From a virus, in IMG/VR virus record IMGVR_UViG_3300032242_000972, positions 1-34,419 of that record: a stretch of DNA of 34,419 bases; one strand, written 5' to 3'. The notes below the pieces were generated by a model that saw only the letters and a program-made list of their open reading frames with translations, did not search any database and had not been told where the DNA came from. Shown here piece after piece: positions 3-23,624 of the stretch; position 1 is the first letter of the stretch, and the number at the start of each line of letters is the position of its first letter. Made by a program: the position numbers and the translations under genes.

Positions 3-209
3 CATGTGCTGCCTAAGGGTTGGACAGTGGACGACCACAACCATCTCCGATACACGGCACCAGCAGCCCGACCAACGCCGTTGAGTTCACTGCATCACAC
101 ATCCACGACGCACGTTCACGTCCACTTGAACGCCAAAGAGATTCAACGGCAAGTCATTAAGCAAACGAACCAGTACAAGGTTCGTAACGGTGCAACGAGG
201 TTGACCTGA
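3..209 (+). CDS. 3' end of a probable tape measure / tail protein (partial)
   Basis: The frame is open to the left edge of the window, so this is the C-terminal 68 residues of a longer protein whose start lies upstream. The GTG at 6 is just the first start-like codon in view. The tail contains a His/Val-rich beta stretch (HVHVHLNAKEI) followed by a short basic end, a pattern I associate with the C-termini of tape measure or other large tail proteins of actinophages. The stop overlaps the ATG of the next tail gene (TGATG), so the two are translationally coupled. The tape-measure call is inferred mainly from position, directly upstream of a distal-tail-type protein. Confidence 0.55.
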   Translation, partial: HVLPKGWTVDDHNHLRYTAPAARPTPLSSLHHTSTTHVHVHLNAKEIQRQVIKQTNQYKVRNGATRLT

Positions 210-3200
210 TGGCACAGGACTGGCCGATATTAGGCGTAGCGGTCGCGTTCACCGGCGACCCAAACAATGCGAGCGCAACCTACGGCTGGACGGACATCAC
301 CAGTCGAGTGTTGGAAATCAAAACCAAGCAAGGCCGCGAGTACGAGTTATCGAACACGGAGGCCGGGGATTGCACGTTCACACTCAACAATGATGACGGC
401 GCATTAGACCCGACAAATACGTCATCGCCGTACTACCCCAATGTGACTCCGTATCGGCGGATTCGTGTGGCGGCACAGTACGGCACTGGAAACATTTTGA
501 ACGATCAGAACAGCAACCACCCAGACGCTCCGGTCATCTGGAGTGATTCGTCGTTTGAGGTTGGCATAAGTCACTGGACTGCAAATGGACCGACAGTGCT
601 GCCAGTTCTTGTCCGTTCAACCGCAGACAAGCATGACGGAACCACGTCCATGCTGATGACATGTGGCGCAAACGCTTTGAACGCTTCCGGCGTGGCTAAT
701 CTGGCATCGCTTAACGTTCCAACAATTCTCGGCCAGCAGTACACGTTCAGCACTTGGCTGAAGGTCAACGCCTTACCGGCATCTGGCACGGTAGGAATTC
801 TTGTCAACGGAATTGCTTTTGGCCCAACGACGACAACGGTTGGTTCATGGTTGCAACTGTCGATGACATTCACCGCCGTTGACTGGTACAGCACCGTCGG
901 GGTCTATACGGGCGGCGCAGCGACAACAAGTTCCCATTCGTTGTACATCGACAGCGTGGTTGTCAATCCGGGCGCAAGCGCAACGCCATACCGACACATC
1001 TGGGTGATCGACGGAGGTGTCAGAACCACCGCCGTTGATGGATGGATCACTCAAACAGCCAACGTGCAAGTGAGTCAGGCGCTAAACGTTGGTCTGAACG
1101 ACAACAACAGTCTGGCAGTGGTCACCTCTGCAACTGCCACACCAGTTGTCAACGCCTACTTAAGCGGCACGTACGGCTTTCCGGTTACGCCTACCCAAAA
1201 AGTTGCATTGCAGGTGCAAGGCTTGGCAACCGTTGCCGGTAGAACCATGCGCTTGTCAGCGTACTTCTACAACTCCGGGGGAACTCTGCTTTCGCTTCCG
1301 CAGATTGGAACCGATGCAACCTTGTCCACTACTCAATGGACTCAGATCGCTGGAACGGTTACTGTTCCGGCCACTGCCGCAACGTGCGTTCTCAATGTGA
1401 CGTTTCCAAGCGGAATGGGTGCCAACGAAACCGCCTACCTGACAAATGGAATGTTTGAAAGCAATGTTGCCTCTGTAGGAGATTACGCTGACACCTACAC
1501 CGGAACGTTGGTTCAGCCATTGTTCACCGGCTACGTCGAACGCTGGCCGATGAAGTTTCTCAACAGTGGTTTCCAGTCGCGTGTGGAAATTACGGCAGTG
1601 GATACGTTAGGCGTTTATGGACTGACACGCATGAAGAACTGTGTGGTCGCTGACTTCCAGCAAGATTACGTGACTAGCGGAACCGCCAACGGATTCAAGG
1701 CTTCCTACTGGCCGCTCACCGAAAACTTAACGCTTGCTCAAACCACTGGAACACAGGTTGGTGGACAGCAAGGCTCGTCCAATGCTGTGCTGACGTTGAC
1801 ACAAACCGGAGCGGGTGGCGTTGCCGCCTTGGGGTCCACCACGTACATCACGGCAGCAGACGGCCTGACTGGCTTAACGTTGACACCCACAACAGTGACA
1901 ACAGATGGCGCATACCTGAAAGCGAACTTGACAGGTACGCAAACGGTCGGCGGCCTCAACCTCGGTGTCACGTTCGAGATGGCGTTCAAAGCCAACGCAA
2001 ACGCAAGCGGAAACACGTTGATGATTTGCTGGCCGTCCAGCAGGAAACAGAACAGCACCTACTATTTCTCGTCGTCCGTTACGGCATCCGGCTATCTATG
2101 GAATATCTGGTACGACGGAATCGGCAGTTCCGGTGCCACGTTTATCGGTAGCACCAACTTGATTGACAATGCGGTCCATCACTTTGCCGTCACATGGGCA
2201 CCAACCGCAACGGGCTACACGCTTACGTCATACCTAGACGGAGTGGTGCAATACAACGGCGCTTACCCGGACACGCCCTACACCACACCAATCATGGATT
2301 CGTACTTGATTGGTGGGCCAGCAGCGGGCGCATCGTTTGGTCGCTTATTCAGCGGAACCATCGGCCATATCGCTATGCACCCAACAGCCCTATCGGCCTC
2401 ACGCATCGCTTCACATGCGGCAGCAATACGTACCGGATTCACTGGCGACACCACAGGTGCACGCATCAACCGTTTACTAGGTTGGGCCAACTTCAACGGA
2501 CCCAAAAGCATTGCCACCGGAAACTCAACATTAGGGCCAGCCAGCAGCCTTGAAGGCGCAACACTTCCCGACGCTCTGCAATCTGCCGCTGACACTGAAA
2601 GCGGACTGGTGTACGTGGACGGCGGTGGACGTGTCACCTTCACCAGCCGCCAAACACGATTCAGTGCCAACACCAATTTCGTGGCAGGCGAGAAAGACAC
2701 GTTCGGGGAACTGCCATATGACAGCGACATCGCTTTCGATTACGACCCGCAGAAGGTGTACAACCAAATCCAGTTCTCACGTAACCAAGGCGTATCAACC
2801 AACGTGTCGGACGTAACCTCGCAAGCGAAGTATTTCCAACGTGTTTTGAACCGCACCTTGTACATGAACACGGATACGGAAGTTGTGTCGGCGGCCAACT
2901 GGTTCTTGAACCGCTACAAAGACCCGCACCTGCGAGTAAGCGTGTTGGAGTTTGATCTGGCGACGCTGAGTAGATGGCAGCAACTTCTGCCGCTTGCGTT
3001 GTCTCAAAAATTGCAGGTCAAACGGCGCACAACAGCGGGCAATGTTGTGACGTTGGATGCGTTCCTTGAATTGTTGGAACACCACATAACGCCGGATTCG
3101 TGGAAGATCAGCGCGCAAGCCACCCCGGCATCTTTTAGTACCGGATGGATCATGGGTAATTCTGCGATTGGTAATCCTCTAGGACCGGCAAATCCTCTAG

Positions 3201-3253
3201 CACCGGCAAACATCAACTCGATCATCGGTCAAACAACCACTGTCGCTTATTAG
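209..3253 (+). CDS. Minor tail protein with carbohydrate-binding and LamG-like modules
   Basis: 1014 residues. The N-terminus (about residues 1-95: W-x-DITSRV, a repeated beta pattern, then SPYYPNVTPYRRIRV) matches the start of siphovirus distal/minor tail proteins. Two beta-sandwich regions at about 113-255 and 275-425 resemble CBM4/9-like modules (SSFEVGISHW, then a YTFSTWLKV-type strand). Residues about 495-740 look like a LamG/concanavalin-like lectin domain (FEMAFKAN, HHFAVTW, YLDGVVQY). The C-terminal part (about 760-990) resembles the conserved end of these tail proteins. The protein probably sits at the tail tip and touches host-surface glycans. It is coupled to the upstream gene by a 1-base overlap and followed after 9 bases by the next tail gene. 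The family-level call is firm; ligand specificity is unknown. Confidence 0.85.
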   Translation: MAQDWPILGVAVAFTGDPNNASATYGWTDITSRVLEIKTKQGREYELSNTEAGDCTFTLNNDDGALDPTNTSSPYYPNVTPYRRIRVAAQYGTGNILNDQNSNHPDAPVIWSDSSFEVGISHWTANGPTVLPVLVRSTADKHDGTTSMLMTCGANALNASGVANLASLNVPTILGQQYTFSTWLKVNALPASGTVGILVNGIAFGPTTTTVGSWLQLSMTFTAVDWYSTVGVYTGGAATTSSHSLYIDSVVVNPGASATPYRHIWVIDGGVRTTAVDGWITQTANVQVSQALNVGLNDNNSLAVVTSATATPVVNAYLSGTYGFPVTPTQKVALQVQGLATVAGRTMRLSAYFYNSGGTLLSLPQIGTDATLSTTQWTQIAGTVTVPATAATCVLNVTFPSGMGANETAYLTNGMFESNVASVGDYADTYTGTLVQPLFTGYVERWPMKFLNSGFQSRVEITAVDTLGVYGLTRMKNCVVADFQQDYVTSGTANGFKASYWPLTENLTLAQTTGTQVGGQQGSSNAVLTLTQTGAGGVAALGSTTYITAADGLTGLTLTPTTVTTDGAYLKANLTGTQTVGGLNLGVTFEMAFKANANASGNTLMICWPSSRKQNSTYYFSSSVTASGYLWNIWYDGIGSSGATFIGSTNLIDNAVHHFAVTWAPTATGYTLTSYLDGVVQYNGAYPDTPYTTPIMDSYLIGGPAAGASFGRLFSGTIGHIAMHPTALSASRIASHAAAIRTGFTGDTTGARINRLLGWANFNGPKSIATGNSTLGPASSLEGATLPDALQSAADTESGLVYVDGGGRVTFTSRQTRFSANTNFVAGEKDTFGELPYDSDIAFDYDPQKVYNQIQFSRNQGVSTNVSDVTSQAKYFQRVLNRTLYMNTDTEVVSAANWFLNRYKDPHLRVSVLEFDLATLSRWQQLLPLALSQKLQVKRRTTAGNVVTLDAFLELLEHHITPDSWKISAQATPASFSTGWIMGNSAIGNPLGPANPLAPANINSIIGQTTTVAY
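3173..3208 (+). repeat. 18-bp tandem near-repeat in the tail gene
   Basis: Two adjacent 18-bp units (3173-3190 and 3191-3208) differ at one base and encode NPLGPA-NPLAPA near the C-terminus of the minor tail protein. This is probably a slippage-prone proline-rich linker. Confidence 0.8.
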
Positions 3254-5970: not shown

Positions 5971-6192
5971 ATGGCTGGACTACGAGAAGCCCTCAGCGTT
6001 GACCCCATAAGAACATGCCGCGTCCGGGAAATTCTTGAGCAATTGGACAAGGATGACCGCGCGGCGCTGTTGGAAGCATTGTCTTGCCGCAGCGGCAATC
6101 ACATTGCAGGCGTGCTGAAACGTGCTGGCTATCCGGTGTCAGACACAACAATCCGCACGCACAAGCGCGGAGATTGTGCCTGCGGTGGGTGA
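5971..6192 (+). CDS. Small helix-turn-helix protein
   Basis: 73 residues with GGAGG at 5960-5964 before the ATG. An N-terminal helical segment (CRVREILEQLDKDDRAALLEAL) precedes a recognisable HTH-like stretch: HIAGVLKRAGYPVSDTTIRTHKRG, shown here only by its key residues G49, D58, T59 and R62-H64. It ends CACGG. This compact organisation recurs in actinophages, where such proteins are annotated as HTH or small terminase-like. Here a separate small terminase candidate lies by the large subunit, so a regulatory DNA-binding role is more likely. No partner can be named. Confidence 0.65.
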   Translation: MAGLREALSVDPIRTCRVREILEQLDKDDRAALLEALSCRSGNHIAGVLKRAGYPVSDTTIRTHKRGDCACGG

Positions 6193-6214
6193 GGTAGCGG
6201 AAGCATTCGCCGGT

Positions 6215-6955
6215 ATGGCGCCGCGAATCCTGTGCCTTGATATTGAGACAGCGCCAGCCATTGCTCACGTTTGGGGCTTGTACAACCAGAACGTCGGGCT
6301 GAACCAAATCGTGGAGCCGGGTCGCGTCCTGTGTTTTGCGGCGCGTTGGCACAACCAGAAACAGGTCATGTATTGGTCAGAGTTCCATGATGGTCGTGCC
6401 GCCATGTTGGATGCCGCTGAACGGTTGCTAACTGACGCCGACATCATCGTCCACTACAACGGGACACGGTTTGATCTACCGCATCTCCGCACCGCGTTGG
6501 CATTGGACAATCGGAAACCTGTTCCACCGGTGCGAGAAGTTGACCTGCTGCGAGTGGTGCGGCGCGTGTTCAAGTTCCAATCCAACAAACTGGATTTCGT
6601 TGCTCAGCAATTAGGGCTGGGTGGCAAGGTCAAACATGAGGGCCACGACCTGTGGGTGAAATGTTTAGCCGGTGATCCCAAAGCATGGGATCGGATGCGC
6701 CGATACAACAAACGCGACGTGGACTTGACGTTCGACTTGTACGACCGGCTATCGCCGTGGATACCAACCCATCCGCATTACGGATTGTGGACAAGAGAAG
6801 AAGCATCGTGTCCGCGTTGTGGCTCCACCAATCTGACTCACCGTGGATGGACACGGACAGCCGTCACCACTTACGCGCGGATGCAGTGCGAATGCGGTGG
6901 TTGGGTTCGGATGAATCACGTCAAGGCGAGAACCACCACTCGGCCAGTTACATGA
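6215..6955 (+). CDS. RNase H-fold 3'-5' exonuclease (DnaQ/YprB-like) with C-terminal zinc ribbon
   Basis: 246 residues from the ATG at 6215. The exonuclease I motif (CLDIETAP, D9 and E11) begins right after it. Exo II-like YNGTRFDLP and exo III-like YNKRDVDLTFDLYDRL follow, the layout of YprB/RNase_H_2 or DnaQ-type nucleases. The C-terminus has a zinc ribbon (CPRCGS, then CECGG). In-frame GTGs at 6176 and 6185, the former with a GGAG three bases upstream, are alternative starts overlapping the HTH gene. Its last codons overlap the next gene (ATGA). It could trim DNA or RNA ends; its place in the late operon rather than the replication block is unusual. Activity is predicted from motifs. Confidence 0.8.
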   Translation: MAPRILCLDIETAPAIAHVWGLYNQNVGLNQIVEPGRVLCFAARWHNQKQVMYWSEFHDGRAAMLDAAERLLTDADIIVHYNGTRFDLPHLRTALALDNRKPVPPVREVDLLRVVRRVFKFQSNKLDFVAQQLGLGGKVKHEGHDLWVKCLAGDPKAWDRMRRYNKRDVDLTFDLYDRLSPWIPTHPHYGLWTREEASCPRCGSTNLTHRGWTRTAVTTYARMQCECGGWVRMNHVKARTTTRPVT

Positions 6956-16265: not shown

Positions 16266-16370
16266 CCACGTCGCTCACCGTCTCTCCAATGCCCACTGAA
16301 AATGGGCGTGATGCTTGGTTGGACAAGGCAGCAGCCGCATTTGCGATTGCTCGGGAACGACGTGACATGG

Positions 16371-16400
16371 AAAAACCCCCACCGGGTAGGCCGGTGGGGG
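16371..16400 (-). terminator. Leftward-facing Rho-independent terminator
   Basis: A perfect 10-bp stem (CCCCCACCGG / CCGGTGGGGG) with a 5-base loop is preceded by five A on the + strand, so a leftward transcript would end in hairpin plus T-run. No leftward gene is visible to its right. For rightward RNA it would be a hairpin 30 bases before recT. Confidence 0.7.
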
Positions 16401-16430
16401 CGGTGCACCAACCGTAGCAGAGGACGAAAC

Positions 16431-17210
16431 ATGAGTGCATTAGCAGTCACCGATGGACAGGACTGGTGGGACGAACGGCAACTGGCCGCGTTGACCCAAA
16501 TCGGAGTCGCCAACGCCAGCAAAGGCGACCTCGCGCTGTTCCTGTCATACGCACAAAAGACCGGACTGGACCCGTTCAGTCGCCAGATTTACATGATCGA
16601 ACGTGGCGGCAGATGGGGCATCCAAGCCTCCATTGACGGCCTCCGCATCGTGGCACAACGGTCGGGCCAATACGCCGGACAGGCAGGGCCATTCTGGTGT
16701 GGGCCAGACGGACAGTGGGTGGACGTGTGGTTGTCAGACGCCGCCCCTGCCGCCGCCAAAGTTGGCGTGTATCGAGCCGGGTTCAGCGAACCATTGTGGG
16801 CCACAGCATTGTGGAAGGAATACGGAGCCGGTTCGCAAATCTGGAAGAAGATGCCAGCCCTCATGCTCGCCAAATGCGCTGAAGCGTTGGCGTTGCGTAA
16901 GGCATTCCCGCAAGACCTGTCCGGCATTTACACGGCGGACGAGATGGCACAGGCCGACGACAAGCCCGAACCCAAACCGGCACCAGCGCGTCTGGTTGTT
17001 GAGCGTGCCGAAACCGTTGAGTACTCAGACGAACAACAAGACCAAGCGGCACGTCTGGTTTATGCGGCGTCCGTTGTCGCCGACGTGGAAGAACTGCGAA
17101 TCATTTGGGGAGACGCAGACCGCGCAGGTCTGCTGGATGCGCCTGTCGATGGTTCAACGGTGCGCGAACGCATTGCTCAACTCGTCGCCGACATTCGGGA
17201 GGCATCATGA
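16431..17210 (+). CDS. recT: RecT/Bet-family single-strand annealing protein
   Basis: 259 residues from an ATG with GAGGAC upstream. The core has [20 protein letters not shown], then [20 protein letters not shown] with the characteristic I-D-G-L-R, and [20 protein letters not shown] followed by [15 protein letters not shown]. These are landmarks of the RecT/Bet annealing family. The C-terminal about 85 residues are a separate charged extension. First gene of the rightward recombination/replication operon. A Cas4/RecB-like nuclease three genes downstream is the likely exonuclease partner. Confidence 0.92.
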
Positions 17211-17584
17211 CCGCGCCCATGTTGCCCTACGCGGGCACGTCTGGTTGGTCAGGCAGCGAATCCAGTCGGCAGCGCGCCGTCACCGCTGACGCCAACGGGC
17301 TGACCGGCAAACGGCAGAAGGAAACGCTGGCATTCGTCACGTCACGCCTGTGGGAAGGCGTCACATGGAAAGATGTCGCCAACCATTTGAACGTGCACCA
17401 CGGCACCGCCTCAGGCGTGCTGTCTGTGCTTCACAAAAGTGGGCATCTTGCCCGCTTACAGGAGACACGTGGTCGGTGCGCGATCTACGTCCACCCTGAC
17501 TACGTACACGGACGCGACATCGCTGAGCAGGGACGCAAACCGCAACGGCACACCTGCCCCAATTGCGGAACACAGGTGGCGTGA
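17207..17584 (+). CDS. Winged-helix protein with C-terminal zinc ribbon half
   Basis: 125 residues, ATGA-coupled to recT. A winged HTH at about 36-95 ([53 protein letters not shown]). The C-terminus ends CPNCGTQ, a single zinc knuckle. Likely a DNA-binding accessory or regulator of the operon. TGATG overlap to the next gene. Confidence 0.65.
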
Positions 17585-17697: not shown

Positions 17698-18053
17698 TGA
17701 CTGTCACACCACAAGCCGTCGAACAGCGACTGGTCACGTTGTCGCGTGACGTTGACGAGGCACACACCGACTTGGTGAAAGCCGAACAGGAATACGCCAA
17801 CGCCAAATCCGACTACGAGATAGCCGCCGCCCGTGCCCGTCTGTCATTGGCAAGGGCTGAAGGTGCCCGCAAATTGACCGTGGCCGAACGTGAGGATGAA
17901 GCATTGCTGCAAACGCAAACCGAATACCGCCGCGTCATGAGTGCGGATGCACTGGTCCGTGCCGCCCGAGCCAACGCCGCACGTCTGCGAACACAGGTGG
18001 ACATTGCTCGCAGCGTCGGCACTTCCGTTCGTACTGAATGGAGTGCCGCATGA
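17697..18053 (+). CDS. Coiled-coil hypothetical protein
   Basis: 118 residues. Almost entirely helical, with heptad-like spacing over residues 5-110 (VEQRLVTLSRDVDEAHTDLV, AEQEYANAKSDYEIAAARA, LVRAARANAARLRTQVDIA). Lies between the annealing protein and the nuclease and is ATGA-coupled to the nuclease. Perhaps a scaffold for the recombination proteins; that role is inference. Confidence 0.6.
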   Translation: MTVTPQAVEQRLVTLSRDVDEAHTDLVKAEQEYANAKSDYEIAAARARLSLARAEGARKLTVAEREDEALLQTQTEYRRVMSADALVRAARANAARLRTQVDIARSVGTSVRTEWSAA

Positions 18054-18694
18054 GCGCCGCCAACAAGGTTCTCGGAGTTCTATTGGAGAGCCGCAGCAAT
18101 CGAGACAAGCAAACCCATGTTGGGCCTAGCGAGATTGGTGGCTGTCGTCGCCGCGTCTGGTATCGCCTTAATGGCACACCCGAATGCAACGACACACTCA
18201 AACTGCCAGCACTCATGGGCACCGCCATCCACCGCATGTTGGAACGAACCGCCAGCAAACACGATCCGTTTGGCACCGATTGGCAGATTGAAGTGGAACT
18301 GGTGCACGACGGCCTCATGGGTCATGCCGACCTGTACAGCAGCGCAAACCGTGAAGTGGTGGATTGGAAAACCACCAAGAAGGCATCGCTCAGCAAATTC
18401 CCGAGCGAACAACAACGTTGGCAGGTGCAGTTGTATGGCTGGCTGGCTAACGCCAACGGCCTTCCCACCGAAACGGTCACGCTGGTTGGCATCCCGCGAG
18501 ACGGCGACGAGCGGAACATTGTCGTCCATTCGGAACCGTATGACGAAACGGTGGCGCAGGAAGCGCTGACGTGGTTGTCCGAGGTGCGCGACATGACCGA
18601 ACCGCCACCGCCACAGGAAACGCGCCGGTTCTGCTCGTTGTACTGCTCATGGTTCGACGGTGAGGGGGTCAACGGGTGTCCAAGTCGTACATGA
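18050..18694 (+). CDS. Cas4/RecB-like PD-(D/E)XK nuclease with Fe-S cysteines
   Basis: 214 residues from an ATG overlapping the previous stop. Motifs in order: GPSEIGGCRRRVWY (C32), GTAIHRMLE (H61), GHADLY (D94), VVDWKTTK (D105, K107), WQVQLYGW (Q127), then C195-x3-C199-x10-C210. The split C + CxxxC + C set matches the 4Fe-4S cluster of Cas4/AddB-type nucleases. It probably resects DNA ends to feed the RecT-like annealer; such pairs are common in phage recombination. No cas genes or CRISPR arrays are present, so a CRISPR role is unlikely. Confidence 0.85.
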   Translation: MSAANKVLGVLLESRSNRDKQTHVGPSEIGGCRRRVWYRLNGTPECNDTLKLPALMGTAIHRMLERTASKHDPFGTDWQIEVELVHDGLMGHADLYSSANREVVDWKTTKKASLSKFPSEQQRWQVQLYGWLANANGLPTETVTLVGIPRDGDERNIVVHSEPYDETVAQEALTWLSEVRDMTEPPPPQETRRFCSLYCSWFDGEGVNGCPSRT

Positions 18695-19044
18695 AAGACA
18701 TGCCAAACCTTCAAGGCGCACGCTGCCGCGAGGTCGGCCCGGACATGATGTTTGTGTTCGATGAAGCGCAACCAATTCGGGGACACATAGCCACCTCACG
18801 CAACCGGCACCTGTCGGCATCGTTGCGTGCCATGTGCGCCTCATGTCCCGTCCTGTACCCGTGCTTGGAATGGGCCATGCCCAATGAGAACTACGGGTGG
18901 TGGGGTGGTCTGTCAGCGCAAGAACGCGAAATGGTCAGACGCCGTGGCGTTGCTGCTGACGCCGTGGTGTATGCGCTGGAACGTCTGCTGGACATGGGAG
19001 CCGATCCCGACATTACGCGACTGCTGGAACGTGATGCCGCATGA
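18676..19044 (+). CDS. WhiB-family Fe-S transcription regulator
   Basis: 122 residues from a GTG with GAGGGGG upstream, overlapping the nuclease gene by 19 bases. C17-x36-C54-x2-C57-x5-C63 provides the four cluster ligands, and GWWGG (74-78) is the family signature. A basic EREMVRRRG follows for DNA contact. WhiB proteins are confined to actinobacteria and their phages, and some phage members act on host WhiB regulons. Here it could switch phage or host transcription at the onset of replication. ATGA overlap with the initiator gene. Confidence 0.92.
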   Translation: MSKSYMKDMPNLQGARCREVGPDMMFVFDEAQPIRGHIATSRNRHLSASLRAMCASCPVLYPCLEWAMPNENYGWWGGLSAQEREMVRRRGVAADAVVYALERLLDMGADPDITRLLERDAA

Positions 19045-19730
19045 GCATCCGCCTAATGCAATTGGTTTGGGACGGCGACCTCGGATTAGACCCCACAGCG
19101 CTGCTGGTGCTGTTGTCGTTAGCCGATCAAGCGAACGATGACGGGGTGTGTTGGCCCTCCGTGCGATCCACGGCTGCCCGCACAGGCATAAGCGAACGAC
19201 GAGTCCAACATTGGCTCACCGTATTGGCCGACCGAAACTTGCTACGAGTGCAAGAACGACCGGGCCGCTCGTCGCTGTATTACGTCACCCCCGCTGTACC
19301 CGTCACCCCTGACGTACACAACACCCCTGACGTACACAACACCACCACCCCTGCCGCCAGCGACGTGGGAGGGGTGCTGTTCCCGGCACCCATAACCATA
19401 AAAGAACCACCAAATGAACCACCAACACAGCCGACCCTCAACAGTGGTCGGCTATGGGCCGTCCAATGGTTCGACACCTACGGCGAGAAGCCACCCAACA
19501 CTCAGGTGCGCCGTGTGGCGCGAGACGGTGCCGTCCTGCTCAAGGAAGGACACACACCCGAACGCATCACCGAGGCGATCAACCGCGCGGTCAAGGACGG
19601 GCACGCCAACCTGTCTGCCGCCCTGTTACGCCTCTCCGCGCCCGTGCGAGAACAGCGCACCGGCAATCCAGCATTGCAAGCCATCAAAAGGACGAGCGGC
19701 GCATTGGCGCTGATGGGAGAAACACCATGA
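19041..19730 (+). CDS. Winged-helix replication initiator candidate (lambda O-like layout)
   Basis: 229 residues. N-terminal winged helix (about 1-81): LLVLLSLADQANDDGVCWPS, STAARTGISERRVQHWL, then a wing (ERPGRSSLYYV). A Thr/Pro/Val linker (83-130) is encoded by tandem iterons. The C-terminal domain (about 133-229) starts GRLWAVQWFDTYGEKPP and is helical. DNA-binding domain, linker containing iterons and a C-terminal partner domain reproduce the arrangement of lambda O, which binds its own gene. The gene lies in the replication block, just upstream of a possible helicase-loader gene. The initiator call is inference from architecture. Confidence 0.65.
   Translation: MSIRLMQLVWDGDLGLDPTALLVLLSLADQANDDGVCWPSVRSTAARTGISERRVQHWLTVLADRNLLRVQERPGRSSLYYVTPAVPVTPDVHNTPDVHNTTTPAASDVGGVLFPAPITIKEPPNEPPTQPTLNSGRLWAVQWFDTYGEKPPNTQVRRVARDGAVLLKEGHTPERITEAINRAVKDGHANLSAALLRLSAPVREQRTGNPALQAIKRTSGALALMGETP
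19287..19426 (+). other. Candidate replication origin inside the initiator gene
   Basis: Two exact 18-bp tandem units (19305-19322 and 19323-19340; core ACCCCTGACGTACACAAC) follow a degenerate third unit (19287-19304, 12 of 18 identical). Downstream, 19391-19420 is 63% A+T, unusually high for this region, and contains GAACCACCAA twice (19405-19414, 19417-19426). Iterons plus an A/T-rich segment within an initiator gene is the lambda oriR arrangement. Confidence 0.5.
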
Positions 19731-20125
19731 ACCGAGACGACGCACTCAAACTGCTCGCCGTCGGCATCTCATTAGACCCGCGACTCAAGGGCGGCACCGG
19801 CGACGACCCGGACGAGATGCTGCTCAAAGCGGCAACATGGAGCGGCACATTGGACAACGACATGCCACTGTCCTTCGCCGTCGAAACCATGCGAGCGCAT
19901 TACAGCAACAACGAACAAATGATTATGCCGGGACATCTCAACAGCCGGTGGCGTACACAGTCCCGCAAGACACAACACACGGACTCACATTGCGGCATCA
20001 CCGGTTGCGTGTGCGTACACCGGGACGGCTGCTACAAGGGCTGGATCGACAACGATTACGGAACAACCAAACCATGCCCGACGTGCCGCCCCATCGTCGC
20101 CGAACGATTGGCGAGCCGAACATGA
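19727..20125 (+). CDS. Replication-block protein, possible helicase loader, with Cys-rich end
   Basis: 132 residues, ATGA-coupled to the initiator candidate. The helical N-terminus (about 1-85: EMLLKAATWSGTLDNDMPL, FAVETMRAHYSNNEQMIMP, GHLNSRWR) resembles actinophage proteins next to initiators that are sometimes annotated as helicase loaders or replication accessory proteins. The C-terminal third has CGITGCVCVHRDGCYKG and CPTCRP, probably a zinc site. Function is inferred from position and weak resemblance. Confidence 0.5.
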   Translation: MNRDDALKLLAVGISLDPRLKGGTGDDPDEMLLKAATWSGTLDNDMPLSFAVETMRAHYSNNEQMIMPGHLNSRWRTQSRKTQHTDSHCGITGCVCVHRDGCYKGWIDNDYGTTKPCPTCRPIVAERLASRT

Positions 20126-20322
20126 CCAAAGTCACCGCCATGCCAATGGATGAAGTGCTACCCGGCGACATCGTAATCATCCACGGCAAACGCTACGAGG
20201 TTCGCTGGATCGTCGGGCCAGACACACACGGCTGGTTTGATTTGCGAATCATCAACGCGCAACAACCGGCAGCGCTAGAAGCATTCACCGCGTGCGGACG
20301 ACTGGATGTGGTGCATGACTGA
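20122..20322 (+). CDS. Small beta-rich hypothetical protein
   Basis: 66 residues, ATGA-coupled. VLPGDIVIIHGKRYEVRWIV reads like a small beta-barrel of the kind found in RNA- or nucleic-acid-binding proteins, but the match is too generic to name. Overlaps the next gene by eight bases. Confidence 0.5.
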   Translation: MTKVTAMPMDEVLPGDIVIIHGKRYEVRWIVGPDTHGWFDLRIINAQQPAALEAFTACGRLDVVHD

Positions 20323-20839
20323 CCAACACGCCATCAGCCTGCTCATCGGCGAATATCCCAGCCTCTGGGATGTCATGGACGTGTGTGACAAATCCACACG
20401 CGGACAACGCAACATCCGCCGCTACCCATTAGCCATCGGCGTCCTCTCAACCGCCATGGAATTCCACGATTGGACACGTAACACCTGCCAAACCATGGCG
20501 CTAAGGCTCAACGCCACACCGTCATGGGTTGGATTACCCGTGCCCAGCGGCCCTGATCCACGCATCTTGGAACGTTTGGTCTGGATGGATTCGGTGTGGG
20601 TAAGCGTCGATCAAACCGACCCTCACCTAGCCAAGAACGTGGCTCAATCAGCCGAACGTTGGCACCGCCGCATCATCAACCATGTTGGAGCGCCAAAAGC
20701 GTTGGTTTATCTACAAAACTCACGATGCCCCAAATGCGAATTGGCCACCGTCATGCGTGAGGGCGGCACCCTGTTATGTGTCAACGTGCTATGCCGAGAC
20801 GGCGACGAATGGCACACATGGGCGGCGTTCAATGCGTAA
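20315..20839 (+). CDS. Hypothetical protein with zinc-ribbon-like end
   Basis: 174 residues from the ATG at 20315; a GTG at 20306 is an alternative. The helical N-terminal region contains LWDVMDVCDKSTRGQRNIRR and FHDWTRNTCQTMALRLNA. The C-terminus (about 140-174) has CPKCELATVM and CVNVLCRDGDEWHTW, a Cys4 ribbon pattern. Such proteins recur in actinophage replication blocks without assigned function. Overlaps the HNH gene by eight bases. Confidence 0.6.
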   Translation: MTDQHAISLLIGEYPSLWDVMDVCDKSTRGQRNIRRYPLAIGVLSTAMEFHDWTRNTCQTMALRLNATPSWVGLPVPSGPDPRILERLVWMDSVWVSVDQTDPHLAKNVAQSAERWHRRIINHVGAPKALVYLQNSRCPKCELATVMREGGTLLCVNVLCRDGDEWHTWAAFNA

Positions 20840-21188
20840 CAACCGAGACGTAGTGCTGGCACGGTCAGGCGGCTATTGCGAACGCTGCGGCATCCCATTA
20901 GCAAACGATTGGGCGCTGCATCACCGCAAACTCCGCAAACATGGCGGCGACAACAGCCCAGCAAACCTTATGGCGCTGCACCATCACTGTCACAACCTTG
21001 GAACCGACTCCGTACATCTCAACCCAGCAAACGCCTACGCAATGGGCTGGCTGGTGCGTTCAACGCAAGACCCGGAGTTTATTGCCATGCGATTGCCAAA
21101 CGGCACAGACGTGCTGCTCACAACTACCGGCGACTATCTGTCGGCGGGACTCAAAATGACCGAGGATGGAGAACGAAATGGCTGGTGA
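20832..21188 (+). CDS. HNH endonuclease
   Basis: 118 residues from the ATG at 20832. The HNH core is clear: YCERCGIPL (C16, C19), WALHHRKLRKHGGDNSPANL (H30/H31 and N46) and ALHHHCHNLG (H50-H54). The C-terminal 50 residues are a separate beta-rich tail. Could nick DNA for packaging or recombination, or be a homing-type enzyme. Its position in the replication block, away from the terminase, argues against the usual packaging partner. Overlaps the SSB gene by 11 bases. Confidence 0.85.
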   Translation: MRNNRDVVLARSGGYCERCGIPLANDWALHHRKLRKHGGDNSPANLMALHHHCHNLGTDSVHLNPANAYAMGWLVRSTQDPEFIAMRLPNGTDVLLTTTGDYLSAGLKMTEDGERNGW

Positions 21189-21573
21189 ACCACTTATCAC
21201 TGTGACCGGAAGATTGGGTGCTGACCCGGAAGTTCGCAGCACTCCCACCGGCAAAGAAGTCACCGAATTACGAGTGGCAGTCACGCCGCGAATCAAACGG
21301 TTTGACGCATGGACGGATGACACCACCATGTGGTTCGACGTTGAATGCTGGGGCAATCACGCCGACAGCGCTCTACGTAAAGGCGCGCTCGTCATCGTCA
21401 CGGGCACACTACGCGCCAACGAATACACCAACAAGGCAGGCGAACAAGTCACACGCCACCGCATCACCTCGCAATACGTTGGCGTGGTGCACAAGCCGCA
21501 AGGCCAAGCCGAAGCCGTGATGGACAACGTACAAGGGGGGAGCGACCCGTGGAAAACCCCGAACCCGTTCTAA
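21178..21573 (+). CDS. ssb: Single-stranded DNA-binding protein
   Basis: 131 residues. OB-fold landmarks: ITVTGRLGADPEVRSTPTGK, VTELRVAVTPRI, WFDVECWGNHADSALRKGAL, then VTGTLRANEY and HRITSQYVGVV. The start at 21178 (GGAGAACGAA upstream) is preferred over the in-frame ATG at 21166. The tail is short and ends DPWKTPNPF, keeping Pro-Phe but lacking the acidic run that usually recruits partners in bacterial SSBs. It protects ssDNA during replication and recombination. Confidence 0.92.
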   Translation: MAGEPLITVTGRLGADPEVRSTPTGKEVTELRVAVTPRIKRFDAWTDDTTMWFDVECWGNHADSALRKGALVIVTGTLRANEYTNKAGEQVTRHRITSQYVGVVHKPQGQAEAVMDNVQGGSDPWKTPNPF

Positions 21574-21731
21574 TCGACTCAGGCGTGGCAGCAATGCTGC
21601 TCCACACGTCACCGGACAATGTGCGCCAAATGATTAAGCGCGGCAAACTCTCCAAACACGGCACAGCCAAGCGCCGCTCATTGGTTCGCTACGAGGATGT
21701 GCTGGCATTACAGAAGCAACGCAATGGCTGA
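21549..21731 (+). CDS. Excisionase-like HTH protein
   Basis: 60 residues from a GTG, overlapping the SSB gene by 25 bases, with AAGGGGGG upstream. VLIDSGVAAMLLHTSPDNVR followed by QMIKRGKLSKHGTAKRRSLV is the HTH/wing pattern of AlpA/Xis-like proteins. A second candidate, after the 12972 gene, for the recombination directionality factor or a transcription regulator. Confidence 0.65.
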   Translation: MENPEPVLIDSGVAAMLLHTSPDNVRQMIKRGKLSKHGTAKRRSLVRYEDVLALQKQRNG

Positions 21732-21807
21732 AGCCTTGTTGCAAATCGGCCTAATGGCCTGCTGGTTAATGGCTGGCATTTGGCTGGTGAAATTGTTTAC
21801 GCGCTAA
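21724..21807 (+). CDS. 27-residue membrane peptide
   Basis: ATG inside the end of the previous gene (8-base overlap). One hydrophobic span (LLQIGLMACWLMAGIWLV) and a basic end (KLFTR). Fits the group of tiny membrane peptides in this genome. No family. Confidence 0.45.
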   Translation: MAEALLQIGLMACWLMAGIWLVKLFTR

Positions 21808-21903
21808 CCATGGGCGTGTCGTGGTTGCCTACCGGCAGTGGCTGTTACGCTTACTGCCGGTGGGCGAACCATGCCCATCGTCGGACGGACGACGGGAGCA
21901 AGC

Positions 21904-22443
21904 ATGGCTGCAAAAAGTTTTCCCGTTGCAATGGTTCCAGTGGATCGACTCAGCCCATACCCCGGCAATGCACGCCGAGGCAACGTGGAACGAATCGCGG
22001 AATCCCTTGCAGCGTATGGACAATGGCGTCCCATCGTGGCGCAAAAATCCACCGGACATGTGCTGGTTGGCAACCACATGCTGCAAGCAGCCACCAGCCT
22101 CGGCTGGGGATCGCTGGCCGTCTATTGGATGGACGTGGACGACGACACCGCCCGACGCATCTTGCTAATGGACAACCGCAGCAGCGACGGCGCGCTGTAC
22201 GACGACGACGACCTCCGAATGCTGTTCGAAGCATTGGACGGTGACGTGACAGCCACCGGCTGGTCAGAAGCCGACATGGAAAAACTGTTGCGCGACATAG
22301 ACGAGTCAGACGTAAACACCGAACCCATGCTGCCGTCCTATCAGTACAACGTGATCGTGGAATGCCGAGATGAAGCGCAACAAGCCGAACTGCTGGCTCG
22401 GTTTGAGGCTGATGGCCTGACATGCAAGGCGCTGGTCACATGA
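21904..22443 (+). CDS. ParB/sulfiredoxin-fold protein
   Basis: 179 residues from the ATG at 21904 (GGGAGC upstream; GTG 21838 and ATG 21871 are in-frame alternatives). N-terminal ParB fold: VPVDRLSPYPGNARRGNVER, then GQWRPIVAQKSTGHVLVGNH with G-N-H in place of the usual G-H/E-R. C-terminal domain (about 142-179; YQYNVIVECRDEAQQAELL) is ferredoxin-like and common in phage ParB proteins. This fold acts as a CTPase, nuclease or nucleotide-binding partner. No ParA gene is seen, so plasmid-type partition is unlikely. ATGA-coupled to the ABC/GNAT fusion. Confidence 0.85.
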   Translation: MAAKSFPVAMVPVDRLSPYPGNARRGNVERIAESLAAYGQWRPIVAQKSTGHVLVGNHMLQAATSLGWGSLAVYWMDVDDDTARRILLMDNRSSDGALYDDDDLRMLFEALDGDVTATGWSEADMEKLLRDIDESDVNTEPMLPSYQYNVIVECRDEAQQAELLARFEADGLTCKALVT

Positions 22444-23624
22444 AAATCAGCGTGAACGTGTCAACGCCAATCCCATCATCAGTGCGAGCGCGCCAACTGG
22501 AAGCCATGTTTGACGTGCCACGGGCCGAGATGAGCGCGCTGGCATGGGAAGGCGACATGCCTATCGAGCAGCGGGAATGGAACGTTGGCCTGATTGTTGG
22601 CCCCAGCGGTTCAGGGAAAACCACCATCGCTCGGGACGTGTTCGGAGATTTCGCTCAACCCGAATGGCACAGCCTCAGCGTCGTGGATGATTTCCCTACC
22701 AACGCCAGCATGGAAGACATCGCCGCCATCTGTCAGGCCGTTGGCTTCAACACCATTCCGGCTTGGTTGCGACCATACGACGTGCTATCCACCGGCGAAA
22801 AGTTTCGCGTGGACATGGCTCGACTGCTGCTGGAAGCATCCGATGTCACGGTCATGGATGAGTTCACCAGCACCGTGGACCGGCAGGTAGCCAAGATTGG
22901 CAGCCACGCCGTCCAGAAATACGCCCGCAAACATGGCAAACAGTTCGTGGCGGTCACCTGCCATTACGACGTGCTGGACTGGTTACAACCAGACTGGGTG
23001 CTGGAACCAGCAACCATGACGTTCACGTGGAGGTCGGTTCAACCCCGACCACTCGTCAACACCACTATCCAGCCTGTTCCTTACTCCGCATGGAGGCTGT
23101 TCGCTCCATTCCACTATCTGACCAGCGACCTTAACCGCACCGCCCGATGCTGGTGCCTATTCGTTGACGACCAACCCGCAGCATTCGCTGGCGTCCTACG
23201 CCGACCGCACCCCAAAGCCAAAGACATCATGGGCGTGTCCCGTCTTGTAACGCTGCCAGACTGGCAAGGCCTCGGCTTAGCCTTCCATCTGGCCGACAAC
23301 ATTGGCGGCGTGTACAAAGCCATCGGTGAAAGGCTACGAACCTATCCGGCTCATCCAGCCTTGATCCACGGTTTTGATCGGTCACGCATGTGGCGACTGG
23401 CACAGAAACCAGCCTACGGTTCAGGCAACAGCAGCAAGACAGGCCCAAACGCCACCATTGGCAGCCGCAGCCGAGCATCCGGCGCCAACATTACCGGCGA
23501 TATGGGATTACGTCAGGCAAAAACATGGGCACACGGCAGCCGCCCCTGCGCCGTGTTCGAGTATGCCGGACCAGCACACGCCGACCACAAGGAAGCCGCC
23601 GACCTTTTCGGGTTCTGGAAATGA
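22440..23624 (+). CDS. ABC-type ATPase fused to a GNAT acetyltransferase-like domain (COG2401-like)
   Basis: 394 residues. The N-terminal ATPase has Walker A GPSGSGKT (54-61), signature-like LSTGE (116-120), Walker B VTVMDE (136-141) and an H-loop H175 in CHYDVLDW. There are no membrane spans, so it is not a transporter. Residues about 205-394 form a GNAT-like domain: SRLVTLPDWQGLGLAFHLAD has Q276-G-L-G279-L-A281, fitting the Q/RxxGxG/A acyl-CoA loop. The ABC+acetyltransferase arrangement is known from COG2401 and resembles the GNAT fold of phage Mu Mom, which modifies adenine. A nucleic-acid modification role here is inference. Confidence 0.85.
   Translation: MKISVNVSTPIPSSVRARQLEAMFDVPRAEMSALAWEGDMPIEQREWNVGLIVGPSGSGKTTIARDVFGDFAQPEWHSLSVVDDFPTNASMEDIAAICQAVGFNTIPAWLRPYDVLSTGEKFRVDMARLLLEASDVTVMDEFTSTVDRQVAKIGSHAVQKYARKHGKQFVAVTCHYDVLDWLQPDWVLEPATMTFTWRSVQPRPLVNTTIQPVPYSAWRLFAPFHYLTSDLNRTARCWCLFVDDQPAAFAGVLRRPHPKAKDIMGVSRLVTLPDWQGLGLAFHLADNIGGVYKAIGERLRTYPAHPALIHGFDRSRMWRLAQKPAYGSGNSSKTGPNATIGSRSRASGANITGDMGLRQAKTWAHGSRPCAVFEYAGPAHADHKEAADLFGFWK

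Follow-up and report, generated by a model that had tools for sequence, protein, structure and literature searches.

The window, by which the whole analyzed stretch of a virus record (34,419 bases) is meant, very probably contains a lytic replication origin that is built like ori-lambda and lies within the gene of its own initiator (19041-19730, the gene under study); the probability of this reading is roughly 0.88. An earlier note on this DNA had proposed such a lambda-like origin. The anatomy of the site in the window and comparative evidence from homologues, in which the linker DNA is under selection, both support it.

Anatomy of the site within the initiator gene

The gene at 19041-19730 on the plus strand encodes an O-like replication initiator of 229 amino acids, composed of a winged-helix N-domain, a disordered linker and a helical C-domain. 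The protein matches HTH_36 (E=5.7e-11) and PHROG 391, annotated as 'replication initiation O-like' (E=1.1e-18); the latter match covers residues 1-125 only and leaves the C-domain outside. An AF2 model built from 32 sequences (mean pLDDT 75.8) shows a confident winged helix in residues 1-84 (19041-19292, plus strand; pLDDT block means of 79-98 for residues 1-80) with the secondary structure H3-11, H18-30, H41-48, H52-64, E68-71 and E79-82, followed by a stretch of low confidence at about residues 85-133 and a helical domain from residue 134. A fold search with this model was uninformative about the family, as it returned generic winged-helix regulators (best E 1.4e-3) and one DnaD model at rank 10. 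Among solved structures no relative was found by sequence (best E 0.25). The iterons occupy codons 81-107 and the A+T-rich segment codons 118-129, so that the putative origin DNA coincides with the predicted floppy linker. This agrees with the earlier placement of the iterons in a linker directly past the winged helix.

The core CACCCC(C/T)G is present four times in the initiator gene, at 19286, 19304, 19322 and 19346, with spacings of 18, 18 and 24. Tandem Repeats Finder (TRF) reported a perfect repeat at 19304-19343 (period 18, 2.2 copies, 100% match), which extends in degenerate form over 19282-19337 (3.1 copies, 81%). All four iterons lie on the plus strand. Iteron 1 (19283-19300) is degenerate, being 78% identical to unit 2, and its core CACCCCCG at 19286 is placed as in relatives. 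Iterons 2 (19301-19318, core at 19304) and 3 (19319-19336, core at 19322) were detected by both TRF and the repeat scan and share the exact 22-nt repeat CACCCCTGACGTACACAACACC, which starts at 19304 and recurs at a spacing of 18. Iteron 4 (19343-19360) follows at a spacing of 24 with the core CACCCCTG at 19346 and 86% identity over 14 nt. A possible fifth core, an inverted GGGGTG on the minus strand at 19371-19376, is weak and was found by pattern scan only. Thus the two exact 18-bp units and the degenerate third unit described earlier were recovered, but their number had been set too low, as the core occurs four times and is accompanied by one inverted GGGGTG. Dyad symmetry is clear in iteron 2 (CGTCA-CCCC-TGACG) and weak in the other units. 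As a family-wide feature it found no support, the best centre being 38% complementary.

The repeat CACCCCTGACGTACACAACACC is the only one of at least 16 nt at a spacing of 12-60 in the 34,419 bases scanned. Its length was reached in none of 60 first-order Markov sequences of equal length, in which the largest repeat measured 13 nt. When the initiator gene was shuffled synonymously, with protein and codon counts fixed, a 22-nt repeat arose in 2 of 1000 shuffles and the observed count of repeated 9-mers in none of 1000. A related repeat test, applied to 31 other genes of the window that were listed by hand, flagged one at the same level (209-3253), which indicates that the test is selective, yet not unique to the initiator gene. 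Near the end of that long tail-region gene, an 18-nt tandem repeat is located at 3173-3210 (2.1 copies, 95%).

Directly after the iterons, as the earlier note had claimed, lies the most A/T-rich stretch nearby, a putative DNA-unwinding element with 64% A+T at 19392-19427. It is a local maximum, namely among all 36-nt windows starting at 18,000-21,800, and ranks within the top 0.19% across the whole window. Within it TRF identified a 12-nt repeat, AAAAGAACCACC, on the plus strand at 19400-19425; the 10-bp repeat GAACCACCAA that had been noticed before recurs there at a spacing of 12. All the elements of the proposed origin are therefore present where they had been placed, or only a few bases away. 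The relatives L179, L178 and L092 contain related A/C-rich 12-13-mers (GAAACACCC), some of them out of frame. The A+T content of relatives rises at codons 116-128; the mean is 45-46% at codons 116-124, directly past the iterons, compared with 30-35% at the iterons themselves. A perfect 8-bp inverted repeat (AGCCGACC/GGTCGGCT) borders the segment at 19429-19453. This hairpin was discarded as a conserved element, as such hairpins showed no rise at the corresponding position among the cluster representatives described below.

The iterons might be initiator sites whose main role is to control copy number or to act as a secondary origin, with lytic replication starting elsewhere. Phage SPP1 provides a precedent, since it has two origins, of which one (oriL) is positioned inside gene 38 (PMC6316719). 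However, the exact 18-nt unit, allowing up to three mismatches, was found nowhere in the window except at 19304 and 19322. A second origin in the window was rejected on this ground, and lytic replication starting elsewhere is very unlikely. The cumulative GC skew of the record peaks inside the initiator gene, at 19154. This is a maximum and not the minimum expected of a bidirectional origin whose leading strands are rich in G; it would count against the origin reading, although gene orientation confounds the measure.

Iterons and codon conservation in homologous genes

Since all four units of the window are in the same frame, the window by itself leaves room for a peptide repeat (VTPDVH/NTPDVH), that is, a recent tandem duplication of 18-nt units in a tolerant disordered linker and without any function of the DNA. 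The low confidence of the modelled linker is typical of disordered stretches, and out-of-frame repeats are no more frequent in the window gene than in shuffles (observed number reached in 42 of 300 shuffles and, in a second run, in 25 of 200). It is the homologous genes that lend the origin reading its force.

A peptide scan that used only the O protein against viral contigs yielded ten pattern matches and no relatives. The exact 16-nt iteron matched 16 viral contigs once each and without arrays, which was taken as chance. Relatives were obtained via terminase, exonuclease and alignment queries. The first set, derived from the terminase and exonuclease queries and from 50 of 80 terminase records that were searched (12 of the 50 with a match), comprised 40 distinct O-like frames. 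After two shorter ones were dropped, 38 genes of at least 200 codons, including those of the window and of L082, were tested. In 30 of these 38 genes, no more than 3 of the 300 synonymous shuffles had as many repeated 9-mers as the gene itself, and in 24 out-of-frame repeated 9-mers were likewise in excess. Repeated 9-mers were absent from three (L059, L065 and L052). Genes of an aquatic group contain ACGGGGCGAC up to four times, with spacings such as 23 and 30 and followed by A/C-rich 12-13-mers. The spacing of 23 shifts the reading frame.

The second set was assembled by alignment queries from the best 80 of at least 532 viral loci and the best 80 of 110 genome loci. An O-like frame was present in 155 of these 160 loci; 149 frames were distinct, and 145 genes of at least 450 nt were analyzed. 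These relatives scored best in each scan, many of them come from Pseudomonas prophages, and they are not independent of each other. Matches to ACCCC[CTG]G[CA] fall almost entirely (515 of 519) into codons 80-139 of the 145 genes, where the window has its iterons. Three or more copies of the core are found in the linker of 106 genes, and 104 of these write it in more than one frame (two frames in 72 genes, three in 32, one in 2). Out-of-frame repeats exceeded all 100 synonymous shuffles in 119 of the 145 genes. Clustering at 80% N-domain identity gave 52 clusters, the window included. Repeats went beyond synonymous shuffles in 51 of them and out-of-frame repeats in 45; the window passes the test for all repeats and fails that for out-of-frame repeats. 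The homologue L326 from an Actinomycetota MAG, which is 51% identical over residues 1-99, has an array of its own with spacings of 18, 18, 23 and 22. Lambda O and lambda P were used as positive and negative controls for the repeat test, which flagged the former (0 of 400 shuffles) and not the latter (193 of 400). The four annotated iterons of lambda start at codons 116-138 in frames 0, 2, 2 and 1.

The codons of the linker are also better conserved than those of the flanking domains. At identical residues the same codon was used in the linker with a frequency of 0.79 among 21 aquatic genes (N-domain 0.39, C-domain 0.43), 0.59 among the 51 cluster representatives (0.40 and 0.41) and 0.46 between the window and these representatives (0.32 and 0.38), figures that are descriptive because the pairs are not independent and the residue make-up differs between regions. 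A first codon count, which demanded the motif in both sequences, was circular and was replaced by this count without that requirement. Because the core stands in several frames and linker codons are better kept, selection in the homologues appears to act on the linker DNA and not on the peptide. The earlier note had named repeats that are absent, or conserved in protein but variable in DNA, as the result in relatives that would speak against an origin. The opposite was found, as the relatives carry the same core at the same codons, mostly in more than one frame. A repeat kept for its peptide, or without any function, can hardly account for this pattern.

The N-domain is a plausible candidate for the part of the protein that reads the iterons. 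Aquatic HTH_36 genes and the group of L015 share a mean identity of 50% in the C-domain and of 26% in the N-domain. The motif ACG[GAC][GC]GCGAC was found in 18 of 21 aquatic HTH_36 genes and in none of the 7 genes of the L015 group, whereas CCCTG[GA]AA was present in all 7 of the latter and in none of the 21 former. Different N-domains thus go along with different iterons while the C-domains are related, which fits recognition of the iterons by the N-domain. Tentatively, the N-domain and its iterons may move between phages as one cassette that leaves the C-domain in place, and unrelated helicases or loaders may occupy the slot that follows; in the window, an Actinomycetota phage, the occupant would be a compact Cys-rich loader whose family is uncharacterised. 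If so, iteron arrays would be a readable natural record of the DNA specificity of winged helices.

Gene neighbourhood and proposed course of initiation

The early module has the order RecT, HTH gene, exonuclease, WhiB, O-like initiator, small gene, HNH and SSB. On the plus strand it encodes a RecT-like annealing protein (16302-17210; PF03837, E=4.1e-27), a PD-(D/E)XK exonuclease (18038-18694; PF12705, 1.9e-9; PHROG 1674, 8.1e-31) and a single-strand binding protein (21166-21573; PF00436, 1.3e-21). Profile matches identified the HTH gene, with weak similarity to MarR (17207-17584), and the WhiB-like gene directly upstream of the initiator gene (18676-19044). Terminase, portal and head genes are located downstream of the module, and the minus strand harbors a serine recombinase and a repressor-like gene. 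The WhiB gene and the homologue L326 suggest an Actinomycetota host. A single gene at 22422-23624 combines an ABC-ATPase part with a GNAT acetyltransferase part and adjoins a ParB-like gene (21838-22443), an unusual pair.

Binding arrays may be regulatory, and a WhiB-like gene just upstream and an HTH gene nearby would supply regulators, but it is most improbable that the repeats are operators by which the initiator or another phage regulator controls the early operon and that no origin exists, since the array lies deep within a coding region, is tied to the initiator gene in phages and prophages whose neighbouring genes differ, and has an A+T-rich repeat segment behind it.

The gene that follows the initiator is located at 19727-20125 on the plus strand and encodes a candidate helicase loader of 132 amino acids with a Cys-rich C-terminal part. 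Its product matches PHROG 8924 (3.4e-9) and PHROG 37378 (4.3e-4), and both families are shared with gp72 of Gordonia phage Maridalia, which is annotated as 'helicase loader' and likewise follows an HTH gene that contains internal repeats. The direct similarity of the two products is weak (tblastn, E=0.2). A Pfam search with the window product gave no match, a comparison of its profile with those of two clusters of next genes from relatives was negative (7.1% and 0.1% probability), and a model made without alignment was unusable (mean pLDDT 40). That the next gene encodes a helicase loader is thus a plausible suggestion, a fair guess and no more. In related loci the place after the O-like gene is taken by a Pfam lambda-P protein, as in MD8, or by either a DnaB helicase or an AAA ATPase (representatives L210 and L209); these classes are rough, as 99 of 149 loci were typed, 50 received no assignment by the start-codon rule and Pfam was applied to six representatives.

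The HTH gene of Maridalia (gp71, L367 1536-2504) has internal repeats, TGACAACTCGC, with spacings of 11, 34 and 45 in codons 80-101. They precede the annotated helicase loader and possibly mark a similarly laid-out origin in an isolated actinophage.

By homology and by analogy to lambda, several copies of the O-like protein would bind the four CACCCC(C/T)G iterons (19283-19360) via their winged-helix domains and wrap the DNA, and the adjoining A+T-rich repeat segment (19392-19427) would melt. The C-domain would then recruit a helicase loader, which is probably encoded by the next gene; this loader would bring the host DnaB helicase, and replication would start at this site. No helicase, primase or polymerase family was matched among the 30 window proteins scanned, only exonuclease-domain families in 6122-6955. 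Thus the phage presumably uses the enzymes of its host.

A likely replication origin is thereby placed to within 150 bases on the genome of an uncultured phage. The simple comparative test applied here, which combines repeats in several frames with conserved codons in a disordered linker, requires no experiments to find such origins. Aligned iteron arrays from relatives could show which winged-helix residues read which bases.

Comparison with known origins

Ori-lambda occupies the middle of O, where four iterons are accompanied by an AT-rich tract, and its minimal binding site is a 19-bp imperfect inverted repeat (PMC7466680). The site in the window resembles it in having iterons of about 18 bp within the initiator gene, in their number of four, in their CCC tracts and in the adjoining A/T-rich segment. 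The spacings are 20, 24 and 23 in lambda and 18, 18 and 24 in the window. However, the N-domain belongs to HTH_36, whereas lambda O matches Phage_rep_O (PF04492, 5.7e-36), a family that the Pfam scan did not find in the window initiator. A direct match between the two proteins was likewise not obtained (BLASTP 18.5 bits, profile comparison 1.4%). The iteron sequence and the next gene are also different, and dyad symmetry is not general.

The O protein of Pseudomonas phage MD8 bridges the two initiators. Its N-domain matches HTH_36 (1.5e-11) and its full length matches PHROG 391, a family that is also matched by the C-domain of lambda O (2.7e-39). MD8 and its kin share with the window the N-domain family and the core CACCCCCG from the same codons onward. 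In MD8, as in lambda, a helicase-loader gene lies directly downstream. The window differs in that its match to PHROG 391 is confined to residues 1-125, in that it has another next gene where MD8 has a Pfam lambda-P partner, and in the sequence and spacing of the units.

SPP1 oriL (with gp38/gp39/gp40), compared by its description in PMC6316719, also has direct repeats and an A/T-rich element in the initiator gene and a separate loader (gp39). In contrast to the 30 scanned window proteins, SPP1 has a DnaB-type helicase of its own (PMC6316719). Among the titles listed in literature searches for actinophage iterons or origins and for intragenic phage origins, none concerned this phage group. For MD8, repeats within the O-like gene and a basically lambda-like replication have been published (PMC8508860), so that intragenic origins of this kind are already known, even in the N-domain family of the window. 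The origin in the window would thus be a new example of a known arrangement.
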